Below are positions 1,828 to 38,592 of a stretch of 64,000 nucleotides of DNA, one piece after another. The first letter of the stretch is position 1. Every line of letters starts with the position of its first letter. A model generated the notes under the pieces. The model was not told the origin of the DNA, searched no databases, and saw only the letters and a list, made by a program, of their open reading frames with translations. Position numbers and translations under genes: made by a program. Source of the stretch: Clitopilus passeckerianus (taxonomy: Eukaryota > Basidiomycota > Agaricomycetes > Agaricales > Entolomataceae); contig CALYLX010000034.1 of the NCBI GenBank assembly GCA_944990035.1, positions 186,001-250,000 on the forward strand. Reading direction: 5' to 3'.

Positions 1828-3244
1828 ATGGTCATACACAGGGCAGACCACCCGCCACGAAATACCACTCTAGTAAAAGGAACCAACAACGTCTACAAGT
1901 TCACCAACGGAAGCTACTGCGGTTTTAATCATGACAATAACCGCTGGTGCTACGCCTCTCTCTCCCTTGGCAAATTCACATTCACCACCGTTGCTGTTGA
2001 AAACAGACACTTGCACGCTCTAGACTTCCCTACCCCTGAACGACCCCATAAGACCCCTGCTATTGTCCGAGCTCAACGAGAACACGACATTGAAGTAGAC
2101 AAGGAGGAACAGCGACGCTTCGCACCGTTACCCACAGCAATATCCAGGAACCCATCACTAGTCCCGTCTACCAGCGCTTCTGTCTTTCCCGAAGAGGAAG
2201 AAGAAGAACACCAAGTACAACAACAGCTAGAGGAGAGCCCCACAGCTGAGCCAGAGGAGCGCCCCAGTGCAGAAACAATTGAACCAGAGACCGATTTCGA
2301 TTTCGACTACGAAATGTCACAAGACAACAACAACAAGAAGGACATTGGAGCCAAACCCCAGACGTTCTCCGGAGACCGATCCAAGACCAGAAAGTTCATT
2401 CAGGAACTTGAAGACTACCTCATCCTAAACAACCTCAACCAACTCGAAGATGACAAGAAGATTTGCATCGCCCTATCCTTCCTCAAAGAAGGAACTGCAG
2501 CAGCATGGGGATTAGAATTTCATGATAAATACTCAGCAGCTGAAAGGAAAGCCACCTATGTTGAGTTTATCCACCAATTCAAAGAAGCCTTTTCCCCCTA
2601 CTGACGACAAAGCTGCCGCACTTCTCCAACTCAAAGCCTTACGACAGGATGGGACAGCTGACGAATTTGTCACTGTCTTCAAGAACATTCTTGCACGAAC
2701 CGATCTCAGTAGTGACATTGCAAAGATTAAGATCTTCATGGAAGGACTTACCCCCAAACTCCGAGAGAAAATTCTCTTTTCCGATTCCCCTCCTACCACA
2801 TTCGACGATTGGGTCAAGAAAGCCGTCCAGTTTGACAACAACTGGCGACGTGCCAAGACAATCATGGGACATACCCGTATCATCAAGACATCTGATATGG
2901 TCAAAGGTGCTTACAAAACACCTACCGGTGCCCGAGACCCAATGGCTATGGATGTTGATCGTTTCACCACCAATCCACCCAAACGCCGTCTTACCCAAGA
3001 GGAAAGAGAACACCACAAGAAGAACAACTTGTGCTACTATTGCTCCAAGAAGGGTCACACGATCCAACAGTGTCTTCAAAGAAAGAACTTTGGAAGGACC
3101 TATCCTAACAACAACGATAGCCGTTTCCACAAGAAACCCGAGAAGGGAGCCGAGTTGATCAAATATGTCAGAGCAGTCCTAGCTGACATGCCCCAAGAAG
3201 AAGCCGCTGAATTCTACACCAAAGCAGAGGCTGAGGGTTTTTGA
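1828..3244 (+). pseudogene. gypsy gag (capsid/nucleocapsid), frameshifted
   Basis: Gag-like protein: an N-terminal part with an acidic, Glu-rich linker (about 2180-2330), a capsid-like region (from about 2345), and a CCHC zinc knuckle CYYCSKKGHTIQQC (about 3031-3072) of the RNA-binding nucleocapsid type. The frame breaks at about 2590-2602, where one extra base in the T/C run turns the capsid frame into a stop; the second half continues one frame over and ends at TGA 3242-3244. The start at 1828 is the first ATG after the LTR. A shorter start near 2313 is also possible, because the region 1828-2300 has no recognisable domain. The first 300 bases recur in inverted orientation at 12105-12438. 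Confidence 0.8.
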
Positions 3245-4106
3245 AGAGAAAGACTGCAAAGCCGATGTCAGTACTTCCTCGCTCGATTGATATTTCCAGT
3301 GTACTTGTAGCTACTGATTTTTATGCTGAATCTATGCATATCTCAATCTCTCTACAAGACCCCCTAGATGGAAATACAACAATCGCCAGCACAAAAGCTC
3401 TCATTGACTCTGGAGCGCAAGGGTCATTTATCGACTCTGTCTTCACCAGGACACATCGCCTCCCACTACTCCCACTCCGACAACCAATTACAGCGCGAAA
3501 CGTTGATGGCACCCTAAACAAGCAAGGAACCATTACCCACTTTACCTGGGTCATTGCAAAAATAGGGACAGCCATCATCAAGGAAAGATGTTTCGTCACT
3601 GGACTCGGGAAAGACCACCTGATTTTTGGACTACCTTGGCTTAAGTGGGTAGATCCAATCATATCGTGGAGCGATGGCACACTCAAAATTGACGAATCAC
3701 CCATTACCCAACGACTGTTGCAAACATTGATGCGAGCAGTAGACATCAAGCGGATGAGAGCCATCCGAGAACAAGCGGATGAGAGCCATCCGAGAACAAC
3801 TACTAGAGGAAAACATGCCACCTACCCCAGTGCCTGATTGTTCCGAAGAGAATTCCGGAAAATCAGAAGGACTCAGTGACTACTTCCAAATAGTCAAAGA
3901 CGGAGAAGAGATCAATGAAGACTTTCTCATCGCATACTGCCAGAACGAACCGGCAGTCGGAATATTCACCAGAGAGAAACCCCCACTTATGCAGGAACAC
4001 ACAGAGGATTACCTCGTGTACGGGCCAATCAAGCCAACTACCACGATACGACAGACGGTGACAACACACCACCCAGCAACCAGACACCACACACAACAGG
4101 TGTGGA
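3241..4106 (+). pseudogene. gypsy protease and start of pol, frameshifted by a tandem duplication
   Basis: Retropepsin-like aspartic protease: the catalytic D-S-G motif is visible in ALIDSGAQGSFID at about 3394-3432, followed by the hydrophobic strand LIFGLPWL (about 3619-3642). The frame is broken at 3748-3797, where a 25-base unit is present twice in tandem; 25 is not a multiple of three, so the following part reads one frame over (about 3779-4106). The downstream linker stops being gypsy at the TA at 4107-4108, where the DNA element inserted; coding continues at 9540 in the correct frame once the insert is taken out. Confidence 0.82.
3748..3797 (+). repeat. 25-bp tandem duplication in gypsy pol
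   Basis: Two directly adjacent, identical 25-base copies (3748-3772 and 3773-3797). The duplication explains the one-frame shift between the protease and the downstream pol frame. Likely a replication-slippage lesion in a dead element. Confidence 0.9.
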
Positions 4107-9539: not shown

Positions 9540-10481
9540 CATGCAAAAACATCAATTTCACAAGCTCTGGAACACAAGCGAGAAGATAAGGAACCAAAGA
9601 AATCTCTTGACGAAATCATTCCCGACTATCTTCAAGACTACAGAAAAGTCTTTGAGAAAGCGGCATCCGAACGATTTCCACCAAGCCGACCCTGGGATCA
9701 TGCCATAGATCTGAAGACAGATTTCATGCCAAAAGACTGCAAAGTCTATCCGCTCAGCCCCTTAGAGCAAGAAAAACTCGACGAGTTTCTCAAGGAAAAT
9801 CTGGCCAAAGGATACATCCAAGAATCCAACTCCCCACAAGCATCTCCATTCTTCTTCGTTGCAAAAAAAGACTCGGAAGCCCTCAGACCATGCCAGGACT
9901 ACCGACAACTCAATGAAGGAACTATACCCAACACTTACCCCTTACCGCTGGCTAGCGAGCTCATCGATAAACTCAAAGGAGCAACTGTCTTCACCAAACT
10001 CGACATTCGATGGGGATATCACAACATCCGCATCAAAGATGGTGACCAATGGAAAGCAGCATTCAAGACCAACCGAGGGTTATTCAAACCAATGGTGATG
10101 TTCTTTGGACTAATGAACTCACCTGGTACCTTTCAAGCAATGATGAACCACCTTTTCCGAGACATGATAGACGAAGGATGGGTCATCATCTATATGGACG
10201 ACATCCTCATCTTCTCCAATGATCCAGAAAAACACCGAGAACGCACACACAGAGTCTTACAAAGACTACAAGACAACGATCTTTACCTCAAAGCAGAGAA
10301 ATGCCAATTTGACACCACAAGAGTGGAATACCTCAGGTTCATCATTGAACCAAACAAGATCTCCATGGACCCTGTCAAACTTGCAGGGATGCGTGACTGG
10401 CCCACGCCAACCACAGTAAAAGAAGTCCGATCATTCCTAGGATTCGGAAACTTTTACCGCAGGTTCATCGGAAAATATGTG
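9540..10481 (+). pseudogene. gypsy reverse transcriptase, interrupted by a solo LTR
   Basis: Continues the gypsy pol frame after the TA element. Typical Ty3/gypsy [14 protein letters not shown] (about 9879-9914), [14 protein letters not shown], the [11 protein letters not shown] turn (about 10104-10136), and the active site YMDDILIF at about 10191-10214. The end is [10 protein letters not shown], after which the frame hits the solo LTR at 10482 and stops inside it. With the LTR and one 5-base duplication removed, the frame continues at 10948. As a piece the RT itself is open and has its catalytic aspartates. Confidence 0.9.
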
Positions 10482-10942
10482 TGTTAAGCTAGTATCGCTA
10501 CTCGCTTAGACAAGTATCAAGGGTTCAGCTGCTTAGTCTTCTACCAGCCTTTGTAGAGACGAGCGAGAGTAATCAAGCAAGTCAAAGTTAAAGCAAATAG
10601 CAATGTATAGGCTTTTAGGTCAAGCTGAGGAAGCAAGACCAAAAGCGCGAAAGTATTTATACAAGATTGGTAGGGCTAAGGGTTGGGCATTGCGCAGCAA
10701 TGCTGTGTAAGTAAAAATAAGTATGACTCAGAGTGAGTTGGGGTAAGAGTCACTATGAGTCACGATAAGTAAATATAGTACAAGTATCTCACGATCATGA
10801 GACAACTGAATAATCAATGTAAGAAAGATGAATAATGTGCAGCATTGTAAAGTAATCAAGTAGGGGTAAGCGGGCCGAAGTAGTAACAGTGAATTAGTAA
10901 GAGGAAAAAGAGTCTGGGTGCGTATCCAAGGTAACTGTAACA
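10482..10942 (-). repeat. Solo LTR (461 bp) with 5-bp target duplication
   Basis: Bounded by TGTTA...TAACA and flanked by ATGTG on both sides (10477-10481 and 10943-10947). It shares short stretches (for example around AAGCGGGCC and the TCTCACGATCATGAGA near-palindrome) with the minus-oriented LTR at 12439-12893 but is clearly diverged, so it belongs to a related gypsy family and reads on the minus strand. It presumably remained after LTR-LTR recombination. Its 466-base footprint (LTR plus duplication) accounts exactly for the frame change between the RT and RNase H parts. Confidence 0.9.
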
Positions 10943-25006: not shown

Positions 25007-28000
25007 CTACGACCGGTTAGAGAGGTTTTCTATAAGTTGTGTCCGTGCCCATTCCCCTATCTCACTACCTCCAGTTCCCACCAGCGACCTCCAAACCAAC
25101 AACCTGCTCGTCAGGCCACCCCACACAGTCGGCTTAGCCTCAGAGCGCATGCTTGCGCGCCACAGGGACTCTACCAGGTAGCCCCACAGGGAGAGCTGGT
25201 TGACCACCGGGAAAGGTGTGTGGATGTCATGGGCATGATACGGCGGATATGGTATATGGCGGAGTGGGTGAACAAGGACAGACGAAAGAGGCATCTTGAT
25301 GTCTTTTTCGAATTGCTCGAGACATCGAAGTGCTTTTGCAAGCAGATTGCCAAATGTCATGCATGATGCTCCTGGTAGGAGCGATAGCCGAAGTACTGCG
25401 GATCCAGCGAAAGGTAAAATACCTGGGTTACACGTTAGTCATGGTCACGAAGCTTGTACATCGATGGGAAATGGTACCTGAGGAATCCAGGAGTCTGCAA
25501 ATACAACGGGCAATGGTTGCACGCCACTCTCCACCTGTAGCCACCTCAAGCTTTTCGGCATCTGCTACACTCATGATGTTGTCAAGGATCCTAATCCATT
25601 CCACCGCTTCAGTACATCTTTCTTGAAGCATTTGGGACTCGATCCATGTAAGGAGAGAAGACTTGAGGAGCAAAGACATTGTCGCCTGGGCATGACAGGT
25701 TAAACTTGCAAGAACCTACAAACAATACTGGGTCAGAAATTGATCAGATGAGAGCGTTTCAAACCTTACCTCAAGCACGCCAGTGCGTAACGGCCGGTCT
25801 TCTGGACAAGCTTGATACATGCTGGCCAGCAGGTCCCAGGTATGCCTCCTCTTTAGCACCCGCCAGTCATCCGAACCGACCATCCCATCTGCCAGGAAAC
25901 GCAACATCCAACTACGTTCCTTCTTCCAGTCGTCGGAGCTGCTGTATAGCATACTGAACAGCAGAGGAACGTCGCCTGTATCCAGTTCTGGGCGTTGCAG
26001 GAGGAAGCGGGCTGTGATGGGGTAGATGAAGTTTGAAGGGTAGAATATTCCTCTGAATGCGTGAGCAAGGAGCAGGGTCGTATATGTTGGAAGGCGGATA
26101 GGTGCTTCGCCAGCCGTCGCTGGAGGAATGGCGTCTCTCAGCAAGGATAGGACATGGATGACATGTGACTTCTCGTGTAGGTCTGCGAGCTGAAATCGAA
26201 TGGAAATTAGAATCAAGAGGTTACTCGATAACTGAATACATGGGCTTACCTCGAGATGTCGCCACAGGACTGCCACTTGACTCAACGCCAGTTCCCTGAT
26301 AGCAGGATCCCTGGCCGACAAACACCTCACTACGAGCCCCACGATGTTCGAACGGAATAGCTCAACCCATGCCAGAGCTGACGTTGGCGGGTCCTCAGCC
26401 AGAACCTGGGCAAAGAGCAACAGTAGAAACACCGGGTCGTAAAGCTGCGCCTCATATGACGTGGCTTGTCCTGTCGCCAGGTCATGCAGTTGACGGCACT
26501 TAGGAAAGCTAAGGGTAGTGCGAAGCACGACGGCCGGGTCCAAGCTTTGGAGGCTTTCAAGGGCCTTGCTTGCTTCACTTGTCTTGGAGGACGACCATCG
26601 CCCAGTGAGGGAAGAGATGGACATTTTACGCTCTTCCTCAAAAAGTCGGAATATGGAGAGGATTTGACAGTCTGCAATTGAGAGTGTTCCATGATAGACT
26701 TTCAGCAGGGGCTCCACGTGTGTCGGCTGACAAGTGTTTGTTGGGTGGAGATTGAAGAGGGTGTGGAGGAGGTTGACGACGGCGTCTCTTGTGCTGGCCT
26801 TCTCGGGAGTGCTGACGGTGCAGAGCTTGAAGAAATCGGGATGCTGAATGATGCTCTGGAGATGGCGGTTGACGACAACAGGCTGCATAGTGAAGGTGCC
26901 ATGAGCGCGGTTGTTCCTTAGTGAAGGTGCCATGAGCGCGGATATGGTGAATTTACCTTGAAGTGAATGTTTGAAATCAAAGCTGTGACCAATTCGACAT
27001 TGGAGGCCGAGGACATGCGCTCTTGGATAACGACTGTCAAAAGTGTCTCGACGTGTGAGGCTTGTACGCCTTTTGCTTTGGGGACGATTATGGCTAGAAA
27101 AAACGAAATTAGGCCTTGTAATCCCTTACGAATGCACGCATAAAACCCACCCAGGCTATCCAAGAGGGCGTCCGTGAAGTCTTTGGCTGTTTCAACGGGA
27201 GTTCTGATAACCCATTGAACTCCAGTGTTGACTATTACAGCAATTACTAGTCCGATATCCGCGTTCTGCATGCAAAGGAGCTCGTGACCGAGGTCCAAGA
27301 AGACATTGCTGAAGTCCTTAGGGCGCGACTTGTTGACATACCCCGGGATGGTGTTGACAAATTCTGCGACCATTGACGGTACTAGTCGCATGAGGGGCCC
27401 GACAGACATGACTGCATCCAGTCGCAAATCGGTGGCGGCGGTCACATCAAAGGCGACATCCAATAACCTCCTAGATTGCTGCTGCCAGGCGGAAGCATGT
27501 TCAATGACGGTTCCTTGCCATGTTTCAGCGAAGGCGCGGAAGACCGGAATGAATGAGTCTGCTGGGATTGCCTGGCATACATCGGTACCCAGCCAGTCAA
27601 TGAAAGTTTGACGGGGAAGGACCCTATGGTAGATGAGGCCCTTCAAGATGGCGATCGTAGATTTTGACCAATGGCTCTGTGAGAGAAGGGAACCCATTGG
27701 TAGGTCCAAAGACGTGTTTCTTGACCTTTCCGTCCACTGGTTCTGTGCAGCATGCACTACTTTGGCGAGGCCGGCTTCCTCGAATGCATCTCGACCTAGG
27801 GCTGTCCCATCAAGATGTGGCGGGAGAGAGGCTAGAATACCTCTTGCAATAAGCTCGTCGAGGTCTTCACCATCGGGGATGATCTCTTGTAGGGGAAGAA
27901 GGTTGGACAATCTTTGCTGGATCCCTACGTCGACCTCTAGTGGCGATGACGACTTGTTGAGAATTTGAAGTATGGGTGCAAGTAGAGCAGCTGGGCGGGA

Positions 28001-31000
28001 ACCCTTGCGTTCTTCATGAACCAATGCATCCATGAGAGCAAATAGTGACGCCACAGGAAGGTAACGTAGCCAAATGGATGCAAGGGTTATCTGTAAATTC
28101 TGAATCAGAACAAGGAAGAACAACGAAGACGGTGAGACGAACTTGGTGGAGTACGTTTGGTAAATCGGCTCGAACTACCTCTAGCCAGTGTGACGCGAGG
28201 GATGATACAAGGGCTTGGTCAACAGTATTGGTTGGACTCAAGGCAGCCTCGACCAGATCTCGTATACCTGGGCCACAGTTCAGTAAAGTTGCAAGTGCAG
28301 AAAAGGGGAACCGAACCATTGATGATATCTTCTGTGGCGTGCTCTTGAGTGAAGCAGCTTTTGAACGATGCCAGGCGGGTGAACACCAGCTCTTTAAGGC
28401 TTCTCAATTCTTCAGATGAGGATTGTCGCAATGCCGCCTCAAACGCTCGAGCAGAATGGTGTAAAAGCTGGGCGATGAGATGGTCTTGTGGATCCCGTTG
28501 CAGAACTGCTGACATATGGTGACTGATGAGGAAAATGATTCTCTTGAGCTGCCGGAAGTCTGCATCGGCAATGAAGTTCGTTTGAAGTGGAATCTCTTGT
28601 TCGCGGGACTGCTTGCTGTGGCACCAATGGATGAACAACAAATCAAAGTCAATGCTGGTTACAAAATCCATCAGAACTACACCAAATAAAACAGAAAAGG
28701 AACTCACTGCTCGCGTAGCTCCTCTGAATGAATAGCCGACCACAGGACGTCAAACGAAGGATCCAAAGCATGGGCCAGATCGTTGGCTTTTGATGGATCC
28801 AGTTTCAGGAGACACTCCCATACTGCTTTCACTTCGTCTGAACCTAACTCCTCTCCGACGAGACGAACCCAGTCAATAAGCTCAACGGCGGTATTTTCCC
28901 GCCCAGACGACGTAACAGCTATATAACGGGGAAAAGTCAAGCAGAGTTTACAGCAATTAGAGGAGATATGGCTCACGAATTGGCATATCCTCCAAAATCT
29001 GGAGGAAATCGTGAAGATCATCTGAGGTTGGAGGCGGAGCTTTTGCAACGCCAGGCGCCGGCTGGATTATTGCTTTCAACAACCTGCATTCTCTCCTGAC
29101 TGCAGCCGTCATGGCAGAGAATTCTGGGAATAGATTCTCCTCCGCTAATATCAAGTCCAGCTTTCGCGAAATATCCGCCAAGAAGTTCCTTTCCTCCAGC
29201 TTCTGCGATAGTCGGAAACTGAGCTTCCGCACGAAAGTTGCAAGGGCGAGGATGGCGGACGGTGACAGAAGCTTCTTCTGCACCTTGATATTGAGCTGCT
29301 CGAGGACCGTCATGAGGAGTGCGCTAGGGTAAACATCGAGCTTTGCAGTTATCGGACGTCCATCTATGAAGCTATCTTCTCCATCGGTTGCAGTTGTGCT
29401 CCCAACGGTGTAAAGCTCCTCGATGTATTTATATGTCATCTTCAAACATCTTTGAACGCAGTCATCCAAAAACGCCACTACGCTGTCGATTTCATCTTCC
29501 AGAGGTGCGTCGTCGGGAGCTGAGGTGCCTGGGCGGCGGCGGTAGCTCGGGAGGCAGTGAAGCCATAGGGAGACCTCAGAAGGATCTTCCTGGAACATGA
29601 TGCTTTGGGAGAGTACATGCTGCAGCACGTCCGCAAGAATTGTTCGGGTCGAGGATCCGGACCGTGAGCTTGCATATGCCTTCAGTAATGTTGACAGGTA
29701 TGTGTTTCTAGAGGCGCCTGCGAGAGATGTGAGCGTTGACAATTTTGACCAGCCAGTCAAGATCACGAACCAGCTTTAGCAGACCATACGAACTGATCAT
29801 TTTCCTTCAGCAGCCGAAGGACATGCAGGTCTTTCAGGAGGCCCAGTTGATCGGATTTGTCCAAGTTGTCAGGATTTTTGTCTTCTTCTTGGTCACTATT
29901 ATCCGCCTCTTCGTCATCTTGCCCACCATCTTCTGGCACCTCACGGACGCCTCCTTCAACACCAATCATCGCCCGATCGACATCGCCATACTCATCCTCA
30001 GCGTCCTCTTCTTCGTCTTCTCCATCACCCTCGTCATCATCGGCGTCTTGTCGCCCTATGGTAGCAGCCGAATGCGGATCCGTAAACCTGCATTGAACAA
30101 GCAGCTTCCCAACATCAAACCGAGCTTCAGCGACAAGTGCAGGCAAGCAACGATGATACATCCAAAGCAGCCTATGCGCAGCCTCCGACAACATCGCAGC
30201 CTTCACCTCGTTCGGTTCTTGCTGCTTCACCGCCGCCTCTCCTTCCTCTCCTTTCGCCTTCGCAGGTGTAGCTTCCAGGCCAAACTTCTGCTGCGAGAAC
30301 GAGATGATGAGCTGGAACTCAGGTACCCTTCTCCTCGCCTCTCGTTCGACCTCTTGTCGCCGCCTGGACCATTGACCTTCGCCTTCCGTCTCCTCAAGCT
30401 TCGCCTCGACCTCCTTGAAGGTCTGCAGGATGGTTTCGTATTTTGACAGACATTTCGTCAGCGCTATCGCTGTACAGTGCTGGACAAGGCCAGATGTCGA
30501 CTGAAGCCCCTTCGTGAAGTTCAGTTTGGTTGGTATTGAGGATGGAAGGAAGTTCGGGAGGATGGTGTTGAGAGGAGGTGGGGTAGGTTTATACATGATA
30601 GCGTCCGCATTCTTCGAGCTGTCGAAGAGGAACGAGGAGGTGGGAACGGGCAATGACACCACAGTCCCGAAATAAGCGACGTTGGATATCCATTTTGAGG
30701 AAAGACGTGGTTCGAGTGTCAGGCTGGCTGACGGCCAGTAACCTGCAACCAACTCTGGGCAAGCAGCCAATATGCGAAGCGCTAGCTCCTGCTGGCGAGC
30801 ATCTTCGTTCACTTTTAGGGTTTTGAGGAAGTTGGAAAGGATCTTGTTGTAGATTTTGCCAGCCTGCCCTCCGCGGGGCTTTTCGGTGGCATCATCGTCT
30901 ACGTTGGTTTGAGTGTCGCTATCGGATTCGCGAGGGTACCATCCGCGATCCTTGAAGCAGATTCCAACTCCGGGTCGTGTACAGATAGCGAGGAGAAAGT

Positions 31001-32154
31001 GGTGTATGAGGTCGGCGGGTAGGTAGTCCGGGTTATCTTGCTCAGGCGCTGAACGCTCATATAATTTCAAGATCTATGTCAAAATGAGTATGGTGACTGG
31101 AACGTAGTTTCGGAATAACCTACATGGCCAAGCGTGCTTTCGTTAAAGAGGCTGATCTTCAAGCTTCGCTTGATTTTTGCGTCTCCCCATATTCCTGTCC
31201 AGCAAACTTCCATTATTTTCCGGACAACGGTATAGGAATCCTGGTTCAAAGCCTTGAAGACGAGTAGGAACTGGTCACGGTGCTGCTCGAGAAAGCTGGA
31301 CTTGACGGAGGATGTCGTTGTTGGCGCCACGAAGGAGAGGAGGAACAAAATATATAGTGTTCGTATATCTAAACCAGAATCAGCACAAGTCCTAATGATC
31401 GTGAAGACAAACGTACCAGGTCTCTGTATAGGATCGATATTGTCATCTCCTTTAGATTTACGGCGCATGGACATCAGCTTTGGCAGGGACTGGTAAGAGT
31501 CAGTTTTTGGTCAACAACCAGATCATAGGTCAATACCTTCAGCTCCCAGCCAAACGACTCCAGTACAAGCTTTTTCTCTCGCCCTCCTGCGAAATTTGAC
31601 ATGGAATTATATAGTTTCAGGGTAAGCAGGATGAGCTCATTTTGGGAACCACCGATATACAAATTTAATCGGCGAGTATATTGCGACGATAGCAAGACCT
31701 TGAGGAGAGCATGACCAGATATTTGGAAAGGGTAGTGGTGGGACAATAAGTCCAACAGTGACGATAGAATCGACAAAACGAGAGAGACCAGCGAGTTTTG
31801 TTTCTACAGAAATACATCGGTACATTTAGCAATCCAAATGGCTTTCGCTGTAATAGACGTACTGGTCCAGCTGCATCCCATATCTCCAAAGCATCCTTCG
31901 CGGCTGGGCTGTTTTCTAGCCAATTTTGGGCCAACAGGAGCCTCTCATCGTTTGGTGAAATGATGTCGTCGTTAGACTTGAGTGAGAGCTGATTCCGAAT
32001 GGCAACTAGATCTAAGCAAGCCTTCAGAGATAGTTCAAAAACAATAGATGTGTTATCTGACCATACTTTGCAGTAGCACCTCCTGGCTCTGTGTCCGTAA
32101 AGCCTCCCGGATTTCATGACCACTTGAGAACCTTTGAGTTGAGGATTTTTGCAT
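25007..32154 (-). CDS. URB1: URB1/NPA1, nucleolar pre-60S ribosome biogenesis protein
   Basis: Large HEAT/ARM-like helical protein of the nucleolus needed for early 60S subunit assembly. Start ATG 32152-32154 (MQKSSTQRFSSGHEIREAL), stop TAG 25007-25009; more than ten exons with short introns, all on minus. N-terminal Npa1-type region: LVAIRNQLSLKSND, ALRILAACPELVAGYWPS (about 30785-30732), VAYFGTVVSLPVPTSSF. An acidic low-complexity stretch follows (about 30050-29890, Asp/Glu-rich). C-terminal URB1 domain: YDPVFLLLLFAQVLAED, ELALSQVAVLWRHLE, DTGDVPLLFSMLYSSSDDW and RTGVLEV (about 26440-25770), then a last exon with GYLVESLWRA and LLVWRSLVGTG. The frame appears intact. The RecQ-DUF6589 transposon begins only about 150 bases upstream of the start, so it may border or replace part of the promoter. 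Confidence 0.9.
26886..26958 (-). repeat. 31-bp tandem duplication within an URB1 intron
   Basis: A 22-base stretch ending ...CATGAGCGCGG occurs twice (about 26891-26912 and 26922-26943), giving a 31-base period. It lies in the short intron between the exon ending NIHFK and the exon starting PVVVNRHLQ, and the splice sites are outside the repeat. Confidence 0.7.
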
Positions 32155-32301
32155 CCGAGGTTGGTTGGTTTGATTTGCCTTCACGTTCTTGACATTTCCA
32201 GGCATTTGTAGTTTCTAGGTCACTGCAAAACAACAAGCATACCACGGTAAGAACAGCAGAACCAGATCCCTGAAGCACTGTTCCTCGACCTTGAGCAGGC
32301 C
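32155..32301. promoter_or_regulatory. Residual URB1 upstream region
   Basis: Only about 147 bases separate the URB1 start codon from the transposon terminus. It contains the left target duplication GAGCAGGCC (32293-32301). No TATA box is evident. Confidence 0.5.
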
Positions 32302-32424
32302 CAGACTCCTAAAACCAGTCTCTCCCTGCGCTCGGCCATCCGGGGGATGCCGGTTCCCGAAGGGAACCAAACAAACAACTTTAGTTGTTTGCGAGCGCAG
32401 CGAGCGACTGGCAAACTTTCCAGT
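32302..32424 (+). repeat. Left TIR of the RecQ-DUF6589 transposon
   Basis: Inverted copy of 37987-38103. It contains two clean hairpins: GGTTCCC-GAA-GGGAACC (32352-32368) and AAACAACT-TT-AGTTGTTT (32373-32390), and the motif GCGAGCGCAGCGAGCG (from 32391). Confidence 0.9.
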
Positions 32425-32574
32425 GGAGCATCAGAGCCATCAGGCTCGCTTGTAGTCGGTAGCACGTTTTAGGAATCTCAACATATGGCCCTCGCGAAAT
32501 AAAATAGGGTTAGGTCTAAGGGCCATGTCACGCTGAATTGAGCAGTCAGACTTCCTAATTGAGTCAGTTCGTTC

Positions 32575-35312
32575 ATGCCTCAAAGCACAACGCGTCGTAA
32601 GTGGACTGTTGAGTCCATTCGCGACCTTGTGGAGCAAAGGTTCAAGAAACGAGCATGCTGGTTCCAAATTCAGGTGGCTCAGGCCCTATACGACGGCAAA
32701 GACGTTGTAGGATGTGCCCCTACAGGTGCCGGCAAGACACTTTCATTCTGGATCCCCCTTCTCATGTCCCTTGCGGATGGCGAGGACAAAATGACATTTG
32801 TTATCACGCCACTGAACATCCTGGGCAAGCAGAACGAGCAGCAACTACTCGAGGCTGGACTCCCTGCTGTGGCAGTTTCAAAAGAGAACGCAAACGACCG
32901 GATATTTGCAGTGAGTTCAAACGAGATAAACATTTTACATGCGGCTCATAGCTAGTAGGATATCAAAGACGGCAAATTTCGAGTGATTGTCATGAACCCT
33001 GAAATTGTCATGGTTAATGAAAAGGTTGTTGCATGGTGGAAGCAGCCTACCTTGACCAAGAGAATACTGAACTTCATCCTTGATGAGGGCCACTGCGTCA
33101 GTCAATGGAGCACATTTCGCAAAGAGTATGGACTCCTTGGTCAACTCAGGCTCCTGATACAAAACCGAGTTCCCTTCTATGTTGCCTCAGCCACCCTCCC
33201 TCCTCCCGTGCTCCGAGAAGTTGAAGGAATACTCCGCCTCCGCCCAGAGACAACCGAGCATCTCCTGCGCTCGAATGACCGCCCAGATATCCACCTGATG
33301 GTCCAACCCTTGGTTCACCCAGCTAACAGCTTCCGCGATCTCGACTTCCTGGTATCCCCTGAAATACAGGAAGGTAGAGCATCCCCACCAAAGTTCCTTG
33401 TATTCTTCGACAACACTAAAGAAGCGGAGGCAGCGTGTCATTACCTCCGAGCCAAGCTTCCAGAGTCAGAGGCGTCCAAGCTTCGATATTTCCATTCAGT
33501 CATGACACAGAGTTATCGGGAGAAAAATGTTGAAGAGATCCAAAAGATGATAGCTGTCGGTTTTTGTTGTACCGACGCGTTTGAAATGGTAAGTGTCTGC
33601 TCCAACACCCATGGACACTGCTGACTTGTATTTGCAGGGAATGGACGTGTCGGACATTGAGATTGTGGTCCAATATAAGGCGACGTGCGACTTGTGCACG
33701 TTGTGGCAGCGATGGGGACGTGGAGCTCGAGGCGCAGATTATACGGCTGTTGCAATTCTGCTTGTTGAGAAAAAAGACACGAGGGAGGAGAGAGAGGCAA
33801 AAACTAAGCGTGCCGAAAAACGGAAATCCTCAAAGACGCCGACAGGACAGATGAGAGGGAGGAAGCGTAAGGCTCCGACTTCAGAGCCGGATTCCCAAGC
33901 CAAATCACCCAAGCGTCCCGCGCTCGCTCAAAGAAACTCCAACCTCAATAAAGATCCACCGGAAGCAGGTGCAGAAGAGGTCGACGGAGGTGCAGAGGAG
34001 GTCGATGCCGCTGTTGATGACCCCGAGACGTTCAACGTTACAACGTGGTTGGCGGAAAGGCGGATTGAGTATGGAAAGGGAGATAAGACGGTAGGTGATG
34101 GGCGTAAAGACCGTGGTGTTGTGGAAGGCAGCGCGATAGATGATTTCATCAACCTAGCATCGCTGGCGAAGGGCTCAGAGGACGTCGTTTGCAGGAGGTT
34201 GGTGATGAAGGCATATATGGGAAGTGACAGACCCGATCGACTCGGTAAGCGCTCGAACTGTTTGTTGGCAACTCGCTCACACGCCCTACCTTGGTTAGGG
34301 CTGCAGGATCACCTTCTCTGTGATCCTCTTACCACTGGCGGTTGTTCTCGCTGTCGCCCACGAACGCCCACAATCTGCTGCGACCAGTGCAGCCCAGATT
34401 ACTTCCAAAAGTTCATGGTTGGGTCCCAGAAGAATGTCACACGGAACACCAACGGCAAATCCCAGCTACCGAAGAACTGGACGAAAACTAACACCGACAA
34501 TCGCCTCACCAACGCTCTCATTCAATGGCGTGACGCCATGGCACTGGAACGGTTTGGATGGGGCGTATACAACACCCTCGGCAGCCGCCTGTTAATGACG
34601 GACGACACCGTCGACGCTATCGTTGCGTATGCTCACAACGGCAAGATACATACCATTGAGAGCATCACGAAGGAGACTGGTTGGACACACGAGGCTCACT
34701 GGCTCAAGGACCATGGCCAATCTCTTCTGGCGCTCATTCATGAGCATTACCCGCCACCTGCTAAGGATTCTGCGCCAGCCTCTGGTTCTCAACGGTCATG
34801 CAAGATCTGTGGACAGCCAGGTCATAATTGTAAGTAGCATGCTTCCTCAAGTCTTTATGCACCTCATTTCTATGTTTCCAGGAGCTACCTGTCGAATTTA
34901 CTGCAAGTACTGCGAAGCCTCTCAAGAGAAATGTGGGCACAGCTCACAGACTTGCCCATCCCTCAACTTGTCCACACCCTATCGATCATCCGCTATTTGC
35001 TCACCTGCAAAAGGTATACCAAACACCTCACAAACGCCTCTGCGCTCTCGCGTAACAAATGACGAAAACATACCGCCCGTCGACCCACCAACAGTCGCAA
35101 TTCCACGTCACTATCAATACCTAGTGGATCGAACGCCCACGACTCCTTCCGCACCTACAACAGCCAACCGTTATTTATATTCGCCATATCTACTCGCTCG
35201 TCCATCGTATTATCTACCTACAGGTCCGCCATCAAGTCAGCATCATCATACGCCTCACGATCAAGGACATCTTCCACCGCATCCTCCCTCTCCTCTGTAC
35301 CGTCGCTCGTAA
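32575..35312 (+). CDS. RecQ-like DEAH-box helicase with zinc-binding tail (transposon gene)
   Basis: ATP-dependent helicase of RecQ type. Exons 32575-32910, 32959-33588, 33638-34829 and possibly 34882-35312. Motif I is APTGAGKT (about 32716-32739), motif II reads DEGHCVSQW where RecQ has D-E-A-H-C-V-S-Q-W, motif III VASAT, motif V GMDVSDIEIVVQY, motif VI QRWGRGARG. A Lys/Arg-rich linker follows, then a Cys-rich segment (CDPLTTGGCSRCRPRTPTIC) like a RecQ zinc region, and near the end CKICGQPGHN, the first part of a CCHC knuckle whose remaining Cys residues lie in exon 4. The exon 3-4 junction would create T|GA, a stop, where Arg (C|GA) is expected; without splicing translation stops at 34835-34837. 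The core helicase looks usable; the tail is probably lost. Confidence 0.83.
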
Positions 35313-37841
35313 GTGTTACATTTGACGTGTCTTTGAATGGCTTGCTCATGCCAATTGCCATTGCGTCAGGTAATGCATAATTTGTAGTTCGTCCAGGAAT
35401 ATATTCATTTGGTCTTGCCTCGTGTATGTGGAGTTGGAGCCTCTTGAATGTCGCCTCCATGTTCGGTGATGAGTGGCGGATAGTTCTGTTATCAAGATGG
35501 AACATATTTTCAAACTGGAGCCGTAAATTCTTGTACACCTCAATGAGCACTGACTCCTCAAGAATTCGACTTTTCTGGTGGTTAGAATACTTTCCGCCAT
35601 GTATTCTCTAGCCAAAGTGTGAGTACATCATTTCCCTAACCCTGAATGATTACTGACCTTGATAAAGAGGTTGTTGTGTTCGACGAGCCAGTCTATGCCA
35701 CGAAAGCAACCTTTTCGCCCCGTCGGATTGCAAAGAATGTTCATTCGGATGGCACGACTGAGACCCTTAGGATAATGAAAGTGTACGTTCTCCAGATATC
35801 GTCGCATCTCCAAGGCATACTTATGTTTGCCGCAGCCTTGAAAGATATACATCCACGGGACAAATAGGACTTCAACACGCCCAATGTCACCATGGTTGAG
35901 TGCGTAAGACATTTCCTCATACCAGAGAAAATAGTCGTGCAGTAGCAGCGTGTTCTCCTGTTGCATGTCTCTGTCATCGTCGTCCTTTCGGCGTAGAGAC
36001 GAGAGGTGATGAGGTGGCGGTGCATACTTGCGAGCGAGCTCGTCTGCAAGTTTCTCAACCTCTTCCCAGGTTGGTTCCGAGGCTGCAAACTCCTCGAGAG
36101 ACTTGTGTTTCTTTTCCGTAGCCGTGATGATCCGTGTCCATGCGTCGAGACGGAGCACTGTCCCCACATGCTGAATGACTTCGTGCATCTGTCGGAAGGT
36201 GGGTTTGCTTTCTATCTTCCCCGTTTCTTTTGGTCGAAGTTTACTGACATAATCTGCCAGACTAGTGGTGTCCTTTCGAGCATCCTTTGGGAAGATGCAT
36301 ATCTTCCAGATGGCAACCACACACGCCATCTTGAGATGAAATAGGCCCATGACGAAGACAATAGCCTGGAGGCGATTCCAGTCTGATGTATCCTCAGTAC
36401 GCGAGTTGATGAGGCTCCGAGCATGCTGACCGGTGAGCAAGTCCCCAACCACGAGCATCACCATATTAACCGGGTTGACAACTCCAGGAGTCTCCTCGGG
36501 ATCGCCAACTGCCGCTTGCTGGAAAATGTGGTCAAGGGCATTTGCGTTGTCTCCAGGGGTACTGGGCTTGATATCCATGGCACTCATAGGTAGCTGCTCG
36601 GTCTTCGTGATGGGTATCGCTTCTATGACTTCAGGATCCCCTAGGGTGCGTCAAAACTTCACGCGAAAATACCCAGGACCGTGGCTGATCAAATCCTCTT
36701 TGAATTTGTAGGACACGTAACGCTGGCGACGCGTTAGCCCAGACGGGTGCTCCTTCTCGGGGTGTATGGCTATGAGCTTGTCAATTGTCACAGCGGGGCG
36801 ATTGGGCAGGTTCATCGAAGGGTTGATGGCGGTCTTCTCCCATACTTCCTTCGCACAGTCAAGGTTTTCTCGCTTCACTCCGTGATTCAAAGGAAGCATC
36901 GTGGCTGATGTAAGATGGATGAGGGTGTCGGCTGAGGTCTCAACAGTAGGTGTAGAATGCTTCAAATCCATGTCAAGATTGTCGTATGCGTACATGGTGA
37001 GTAAACCGCGCCCTTTTGCTCGTATAGCATGTAACGCTGACTTGGACAGATTCTTGATTGAAGAGTTAATTGAGGTGGACGACACAGAGAGGCCTGCATG
37101 TGCCAGAAATTCTCGAACGGTCTCTGGGGTGCCGCAAGAATGAAGAAAGACCCCAATAAGCCCCTGAAGGGCATTGCATTGTCGGTTTGTGCTATTCGCC
37201 ATGATACTGATACATATGACCTTTTTCTATTGCTATCGGTGAGCAACACGTATACCAGCTTGGGACAGTATCAAACTCACGATTTCAAGCAGTGAATCAT
37301 ACAGCATGGTTGAAGAACTGTAGCTGTCTTTGTTCCCTTCCTCGGCATCTGTTTGCTCGTCGTCGTCGCCTCCAATTGCTTCAGCAAATCCCTCTCGGCG
37401 TCTCCTCTTTGATGATGCACCTGATGTCTGCCCGTTTGCGCGTTTTCTTTTCCACTCCCTCTCCTGATTGACGTCTGAATCAGCAGAGAGCAGCGAGTCC
37501 ATCAGCCGCCACAAAGTAGGTGTCACCCCCCGCATCTTCTTGGCAATCTGGCTGATCTCAATCTCTTTCAGCCTCTTTTCGGTGACATCGTCGGCAATAA
37601 ATCGAAGTTGGTGCCTCTCCTTTGTGAGCTCGGCGACTTCAGCCTTGAGTTTGTCCTCGAATTGTGCGACAGTTCGGCCGTCCTGCAGCAAGGTACTACC
37701 CCAGATAACATCAAGCAGAGGGTTGATTCGTTCAGGGAAACTTTGGCTGTCCAACAGAGAGGTGATAAACTCCTCTGGAGTGGTACCCTCTCGGTCAAGA
37801 AATCCAAGGATAGCTCTAATTTTCGAGTCGGCGAGTGGCAT
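35218..37841 (-). pseudogene. DUF6589 protein, candidate transposase, one nonsense codon
   Basis: DUF6589 family protein, widespread in Agaricomycetes, function unknown. Start ATG 37839-37841; exons 37841-37281, 37220-35658, 35607-35218. The N-terminal part is helical and Lys/Glu-rich with a nuclear-localisation-like KRRRR stretch (about 37410-37396). Family landmarks: QCNALQGLIGVFLHSC, MYAYDNLDMDLKHSTPT, VMLVVGDLLTG, YEEMSYALNHGDIGR, GKHKYALEMRRYL, NPTGRKG, GGKYSNHQKSRILEESVL. Acidic residues in YDN-LD, GDLLTG and GDIGR-VE could be a DDE/RNase H-like set (inference). A TGA at 36651-36653 interrupts the frame just before LGDPEVIE; Arg is expected there, so CGA to TGA fits. Convergent with and slightly overlapping the helicase's last exon. 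Confidence 0.85.
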
Positions 37842-37986
37842 GGAGAGAGTGGCCCTCCCTTTGTGACAGGCAGTCTGTATTAGGTAGTTTTCTATCACGT
37901 GGATGCTATTTTATTCTAAATAATAAACGCGTGGCCACCTTTTCCGACTGCCAAATGTGGTCGAATCTGATGTCCGTGATCAACGG

Positions 37987-38103
37987 ACTGGAAAGTTTGC
38001 CAGCCGCTCGCTGCGCTCGCAAGCAACTAAAGTTGTTTGTTTGGTTCCCTTCGGGAACCGGAACTTCTGCCGAGCGCAGGGAGTGGCTGGTTATAGGAGC
38101 CTG
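37987..38103 (-). repeat. Right TIR of the RecQ-DUF6589 transposon
   Basis: Reverse complement of 32302-32424 with a deletion of a few bases near the GGGGGATG part; followed by the second GAGCAGGCC duplication at 38104-38112. Confidence 0.9.
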
Positions 38104-38592
38104 GAGCAGGCCCGAATTTTTGGCAGTTATGCGGTTCGGAGTCACGTGGCAAACTGGCCTGAAATGTGCTTGGCTGTGGATTTTGAACCAAACATTGAGG
38201 TATGTAATGTTGGCTCCGAGTCACGGCTGGCGTCAGATGCTGTTTCAGGCGAGAATCGTGTCAAAGTGGCCGGTTTCTATGATAAAAAGGCAGGGTTTCT
38301 CGCCTTTTTCTGAGGGAAAAACGTGCCAGAAGGAGTATGACGGGTTTCTTTCGCCGGTTTCCCAAGGCGTTCCGTTGGAAAAAGATCCCGGCGCCAGAAG
38401 TGAGTGCCAAAGGCCTTTGCACTCGTCAAAGCTCATGAAATGATTGGTTTCTGATTTCATCGCTGCAATGGTAAAAATCTGAGGCCTCCGCGATCCGCAC
38501 AGCCAGTCCGCAGCTCGTACACCTTGCTTTTAGGCCACATCATTGTTTATATATCTTCGAGTCTTCCTCGAACTTCGCCAACATCGTGAACC
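38104..38592. other. Region upstream of the F-box gene
   Basis: Holds the right target duplication of the transposon and the promoter region of the F-box gene. No other gene recognised. Confidence 0.5.

Follow-up and report, generated by a model that had tools for sequence, protein, structure and literature searches.

The window, that is the whole stretch of 64,000 nucleotides of Clitopilus passeckerianus DNA that was analysed, harbors an element of 5802 bp (32302-38103, sequence read directly at 32293-38112) filled by two convergent genes, one for a RecQ-like helicase and one for a protein with a DUF6589 domain. The element starts with CAGACTCCT at 32302 and terminates with GGAGCCTG at 38103 (CAG...CTG), and the same 9 bp, GAGCAGGCC, directly abut both ends as a perfect target-site duplication (32293-32301 and 38104-38112, direct reading). 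The left terminal inverted repeat comprises 123 bp (32302-32424, + strand) and the right one 117 bp (37987-38103, - strand); each is also self-complementary. The two repeats are distinguished by one 6-bp gap and scattered changes, and the complementarity between them reaches 97% in a block of 75 nt and 89% in one of 36 nt. An earlier note on this DNA had described inverted repeats of these lengths with CAG...CTG ends, a direct repeat of 9-10 bp outside them and two convergent genes within. Direct reading and repeat comparison bear out the repeats, the length of the duplication is now fixed at exactly 9 bp, and both genes are present and convergent in the gene models.

The helicase gene (32575-35312, + strand) is modelled with five exons (32575-32910, 32959-33588, 33638-34244, 34299-34829 and 34885-35312), separated by introns of 48-55 bp, and would encode a superfamily 2 (SF2) helicase of 843 aa. 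In this model, as in that of the DUF6589 gene, GT-AG borders that keep the frame open were picked by eye (introns of 48-60 bp over both genes); at their modelled 3′ ends the two genes share 95 bp (35218-35312). Pfam recognizes DEAD (2.8e-22) and Helicase_C (5e-12) domains in the protein, and a Cas3-like C-terminal match stays below its cut-off. The NCBIfam model recQ_fam matches at 8.4e-36 with 123.7 bits, under the family cut-off of 219.8, and for the first 725 residues the top match in the PDB is a RecQ structure (4tmu, 3.9e-23). At its C-terminus the protein has a zinc knuckle of the CX2CX4HX4C pattern.

The DUF6589 gene (35218-37841, - strand) is modelled as 837 codons in three exons (37841-37281, 37220-35658 and 35607-35218). 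Its match to Pfam PF20231 is strong (3.5e-97, 326 bits, residues 353-753), and besides the helicase domains DUF6589 is the sole other family that Pfam finds in the two gene models at E 0.001 or better. Candidate catalytic residues were picked by eye: D267 (YDNLD), which precedes the Pfam match and lies outside it, D447 (GDLLT) and E701 (DWLVEH). The resulting D-D-E reading is tentative, the residues having been chosen in a single unaligned sequence. AlphaFold2 run on the same single sequence gave no usable fold (mean pLDDT 34, pTM 0.22), and no solved structure was matched by sequence up to E 10. Queries with DUF6589 exon 2 or a helicase ORF found no relatives in IMG/VR, and none turned up in prokaryote contigs or phages, collections that do not hold fungi as such and in which single queries reach close relatives only.

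When the whole element was used as a query against its own genome (64.8 Mb, 160 contigs), two further complete copies were found, at C83:163297-175831 and C156:187386-200447, bringing the number in the genome to three. Both terminate at the same bases as the window copy, and the 9-bp duplications are perfect and all different: GAGCAGGCC in the window, CGTAGACCC at C83 and CGGAATCGA at C156. With two more full copies that share its end bases and carry other perfect duplications, the element is not due to chance; it is a real DNA transposon with two genes, and it has recently been mobile. The copies are 99.5-99.6% identical to the window element over aligned bases, with 21 differences in 5811 bases for C83 and 30 in 5808 for C156 (overlaps counted twice). 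Across all three, only 40 of 5802 positions are variable, and at 32 of these the odd copy out has C>T or G>A, from which we conclude that the copies are young. Inserts of about 6.7 or 7.3 kb split the C83 and C156 copies (C83:166967-173690 and C156:190040-197293). These inserts are bounded by direct repeats, 414 and 485 bp long and 100% identical, as in LTR retrotransposons, and both are probably very young members of that class. By comparison of match coordinates with the gene models, it is the DUF6589 gene that is interrupted at C83, and at C156 the insert lies within the last exon of the helicase.

Leaving the inserts out of account, the helicase has no in-frame stop in any of the three copies and departs from the window copy at 11 (C83) and 12 (C156) residues. 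The DUF6589 protein departs from it at 3 residues in each of the other two copies, and its frame contains a TGA at codon 377 (36651-36653, - strand) that is common to all three, located between the candidate residues D267 and D447; C156 has a second stop at codon 223. With the standard code and this splice model, the shared TGA breaks the DUF6589 protein in every copy. The copies were therefore probably moved in trans by a further copy beyond these three, or else translation reads through the stop or splicing removes it. Splicing of a 39-nt stretch with GT-AG borders could take out the TGA in frame, but this stretch is very short and lies inside the Pfam match.

To look for element-free counterparts, the two flanks of every insertion were fused around a single target copy, and the resulting sequence was compared with similar places elsewhere in the genome. 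The earlier note had proposed looking for an empty site with a single-copy target, and such counterparts exist for all three insertions, although that of C156 extends over 139 columns only. For the window flanks the counterpart is at C36 (88% over 520 alignment columns), where the element is absent and the target present once as GAGCACGCC (one change). For the C83 flanks it is at C82 (93% over 704 columns), where CGTGGACCC (one change) occurs once, and for the C156 flanks at C53 (94% over the 139 columns), where CGGAATCGA occurs once and is directly followed by a 6-base gap. The C53 counterpart may be a dispersed repeat rather than an allele. Many helicase matches to the RecQ model are paired, with similar scores on two different contigs, which suggests that the assembly may hold two haplotypes. 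For a stretch about 180 bp long immediately to the right of the window element (38221-38403), full or partial matches (71-88%) lie at 21 other places in the genome, and the C36 counterpart lacks it; this stretch is a short dispersed repeat.

A search of the genome for DUF6589 gave five matches, four within the three copies and one at C152:465088-465276. An open stretch of 164 aa on the - strand of this locus matches DUF6589 with 48.3 bits, and within about 1 kb a 72-aa stretch on the + strand matches DEAD with 25.2 bits (cut-off 26, E 1.5e-5). The best PDB match of the 72-aa stretch is RecQ5, at a weak E of 0.1, and the element helicase resembles the stretch with 30% identity in an alignment of 56 residues (E 0.001). 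The next helicase-like ORF contains IDEAQ, which we take to be helicase motif II; this ORF has no Pfam match, and its PDB matches are weak and unrelated. The decayed pair (positions 2437-3487 of the piece C152:462000-468000) is convergent, with the helicase on the + and DUF6589 on the - strand, and is located beside an ORF of the beta-lactamase family; no pair of terminal repeats was recognized within the 6 kb inspected. Judging from this single case, the convergent helicase/DUF6589 arrangement is probably older than the element family of the window. By eye, the C152 fragment has Q where E701 aligns, which fits a dead relic or argues against the choice of E701.

Viewed as single-stranded DNA, both terminal repeats fold far better than shuffled sequences (z -7.4 and -6.8, equalled by 0 of 200 shuffles each), but since the repeats are near-copies of one another this counts as one observation, not two. 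In the lowest-energy fold of the left repeat, 18 pairs form an outer stem that encloses three hairpins; in that of the right repeat the outer stem has 19 pairs and likewise encloses three hairpins, the third with only 3 pairs, and the centroid fold of the right repeat is less complete. This strong self-complementarity of the inverted repeats is new here and could provide a substrate for the helicase. As a predicted property it is compatible with a helicase role and stops short of demonstrating one.

Terminal inverted repeats are general for DDD/E transposons, including the AcademH type, which occurs in fungi and animals, and are present here at 123/117 bp. AcademH, the designation for Academ transposons with a helicase, was reportedly described in print by Kojima in 2020 (Mob DNA 11:15), a work known here through the papers that cite it. 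According to the relevant passages of those papers, AcademH duplications measure 9 or 10 bp and those of AcademX 3 or 4, in relation to the encoded helicase and nuclease (PMC10045372), and AcademH comprises low-copy elements in Basidiomycota, Ascomycota and Mucoromycota (PMC10799480). Compared by description, the window element shares with AcademH a duplication of 9 bp and a helicase, here a RecQ-like one, and the three copies in this basidiomycete genome may fit the low-copy occurrence; no difference from AcademH is apparent in these accounts. The element differs from AcademX of the same superfamily in duplication length and in carrying a helicase instead of a nuclease (PMC10045372). The earlier note had proposed a candidate undescribed family; that this make-up lacks a name is not borne out in view of these accounts of AcademH (PMC10045372, PMC10799480). 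We consider it highly likely that the element belongs to the AcademH type, as a DNA transposon with two genes that moves by cut-and-paste, DUF6589 being an RNase H-like transposase of the DDE class and the RecQ-like protein an accessory helicase. It would most likely represent a new family of this known kind, its membership resting on anatomy rather than on an alignment of DUF6589 with an Academ transposase. That DUF6589 is an AcademH-type transposase is proposed here for the first time; neither this name nor self-complementary repeats appear in the passages on AcademH available from the citing papers. The account of the A mating-type locus of Agaricus bisporus describes non-autonomous elements that share the 9-bp duplications (CTAAAGTCC, GTCTGGGTG), have inverted repeats of 93-96 bp and likewise possess element-free sites, in another strain, but differ in having no intact transposase gene (PMC10051438). 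Putative non-autonomous Academ elements are reported from Marasmius oreades in the part of that study concerned (PMC8290104).

Cut-and-paste movement by a DDE-type transposase is inferred from the inverted repeats, the fixed-length duplications and the element-free sites. The DUF6589 protein would recognize the long terminal repeats and cut at CAG...CTG, and joining of the element to target cuts staggered by 9 bp would generate the 9-bp duplications. The RecQ-like helicase would act as an accessory, opening or resolving the self-complementary repeats or gapped intermediates during excision and integration. The division of roles suggested in the earlier note is supported: DUF6589 is the best candidate for the transposase and the RecQ-like protein for the accessory helicase. 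A further-reaching possibility is that the repeats are more than recognition sites and fold into a stem with three hairpins that the RecQ-like helicase handles, DUF6589 then being a family of transposases that act jointly with a helicase able to resolve such structures. We regard this coupling as rather unlikely; if true, it would explain why helicase-bearing and nuclease-bearing Academ lineages differ in the length of their duplications.

Other affiliations were weighed against the AcademH assignment. The long inverted repeats (123/117 bp) and 9-bp duplications would also suit a Mutator-like element (MULE) that had captured the helicase and DUF6589, since MULEs typically have long inverted repeats and duplications of about 9 bp, but these features are not specific to MULEs. 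Pfam detects no MULE domain in either gene model at E 0.001 or better and, at the same threshold, gives only DUF6589 in the transposase candidate, so that a Mutator-like element, the type for which the earlier note called such repeats and duplications typical, is not borne out; moreover, the inside of the element is taken up by the helicase and DUF6589 genes, and a decayed pair of the two is found again at C152. Capture by a MULE is accordingly very improbable. Kolobok elements duplicate TTAA and have a C/DxxH motif between the second D and the last E. Here the duplications are 9 bp long and none is TTAA in any of the three copies (GAGCAGGCC, CGTAGACCC, CGGAATCGA), and the corresponding site, picked by eye in one unaligned sequence, reads GLFH (residues 479-482 of the window copy). 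The helicase of the window is, in addition, a separate gene on the opposite strand and not downstream of the transposase domain. What speaks for KolobokH, a Kolobok transposase with a RecQ helicase, is precisely the association of such a helicase with a transposase in fungi, the only group from which KolobokH is reported in the passage concerned (PMC9587614); even so, we give this identity next to no credence. DEAD and Helicase_C domains as such are attributed, in the relevant part of one survey, to AcademH, KolobokH or Helitron elements (PMC10799480).

A more serious competitor is a distinct, unnamed superfamily in which a DUF6589 transposase unrelated to Academ gained the helicase and the 9-bp duplications independently. 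It draws on the fact that the likeness to AcademH is one of description and not of alignment with an Academ reference sequence, and that a search of open-licence PMC papers found no mention of DUF6589. On the other side, the combination of a helicase with 9-10-bp duplications in basidiomycetes is what the citing papers, in the passages concerned, call AcademH, and two independent origins are less economical. We therefore judge a separate superfamily clearly unlikely.

DUF6589 is listed in Pfam as a domain of unknown function. If it is indeed the AcademH transposase, genes with this label could be reclassified as belonging to transposons, and neighbouring RecQ-like genes could be distinguished from host repair helicases. 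Young copies and their element-free counterparts in one assembly also make this a suitable system in which to test the role of a helicase in a cut-and-paste transposon.

Short relatives of the element were also sought. A 130-bp query from the left end found only the six ends of the three copies in the genome, and the whole-element query additionally matched 51 bp at C138 (E 5.4e-8). When up to 2 mismatches are allowed, the end motif occurs no more often than its reversed control (316 vs 325). In 12 regions selected among the end-motif matches listed, paired ends 53-108 bp apart occur at seven places, none with an exact flanking duplication of 3-12 bp. Six of the seven lie in two regions, C53 and C138, which are 85% alike along 4.35 kb and contain small near-palindromic units of 53-72 bp with termini-like ends (CAGGCTCCT...AGGAGCCTG) that are not bounded by exact duplications. 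We do not claim the paired-end units as MITEs of the family.

Elsewhere in the window, Gag-like ORFs (weak, below cut-off) and a reverse transcriptase ORF, located at 1828-3241 and 9726-10484, represent other retroelements. To the left of the transposon, ORFs with NopRA1 and Npa1 domains (25719-31070, - strand) probably belong to a ribosome-biogenesis gene of the URB1/Npa1 type.
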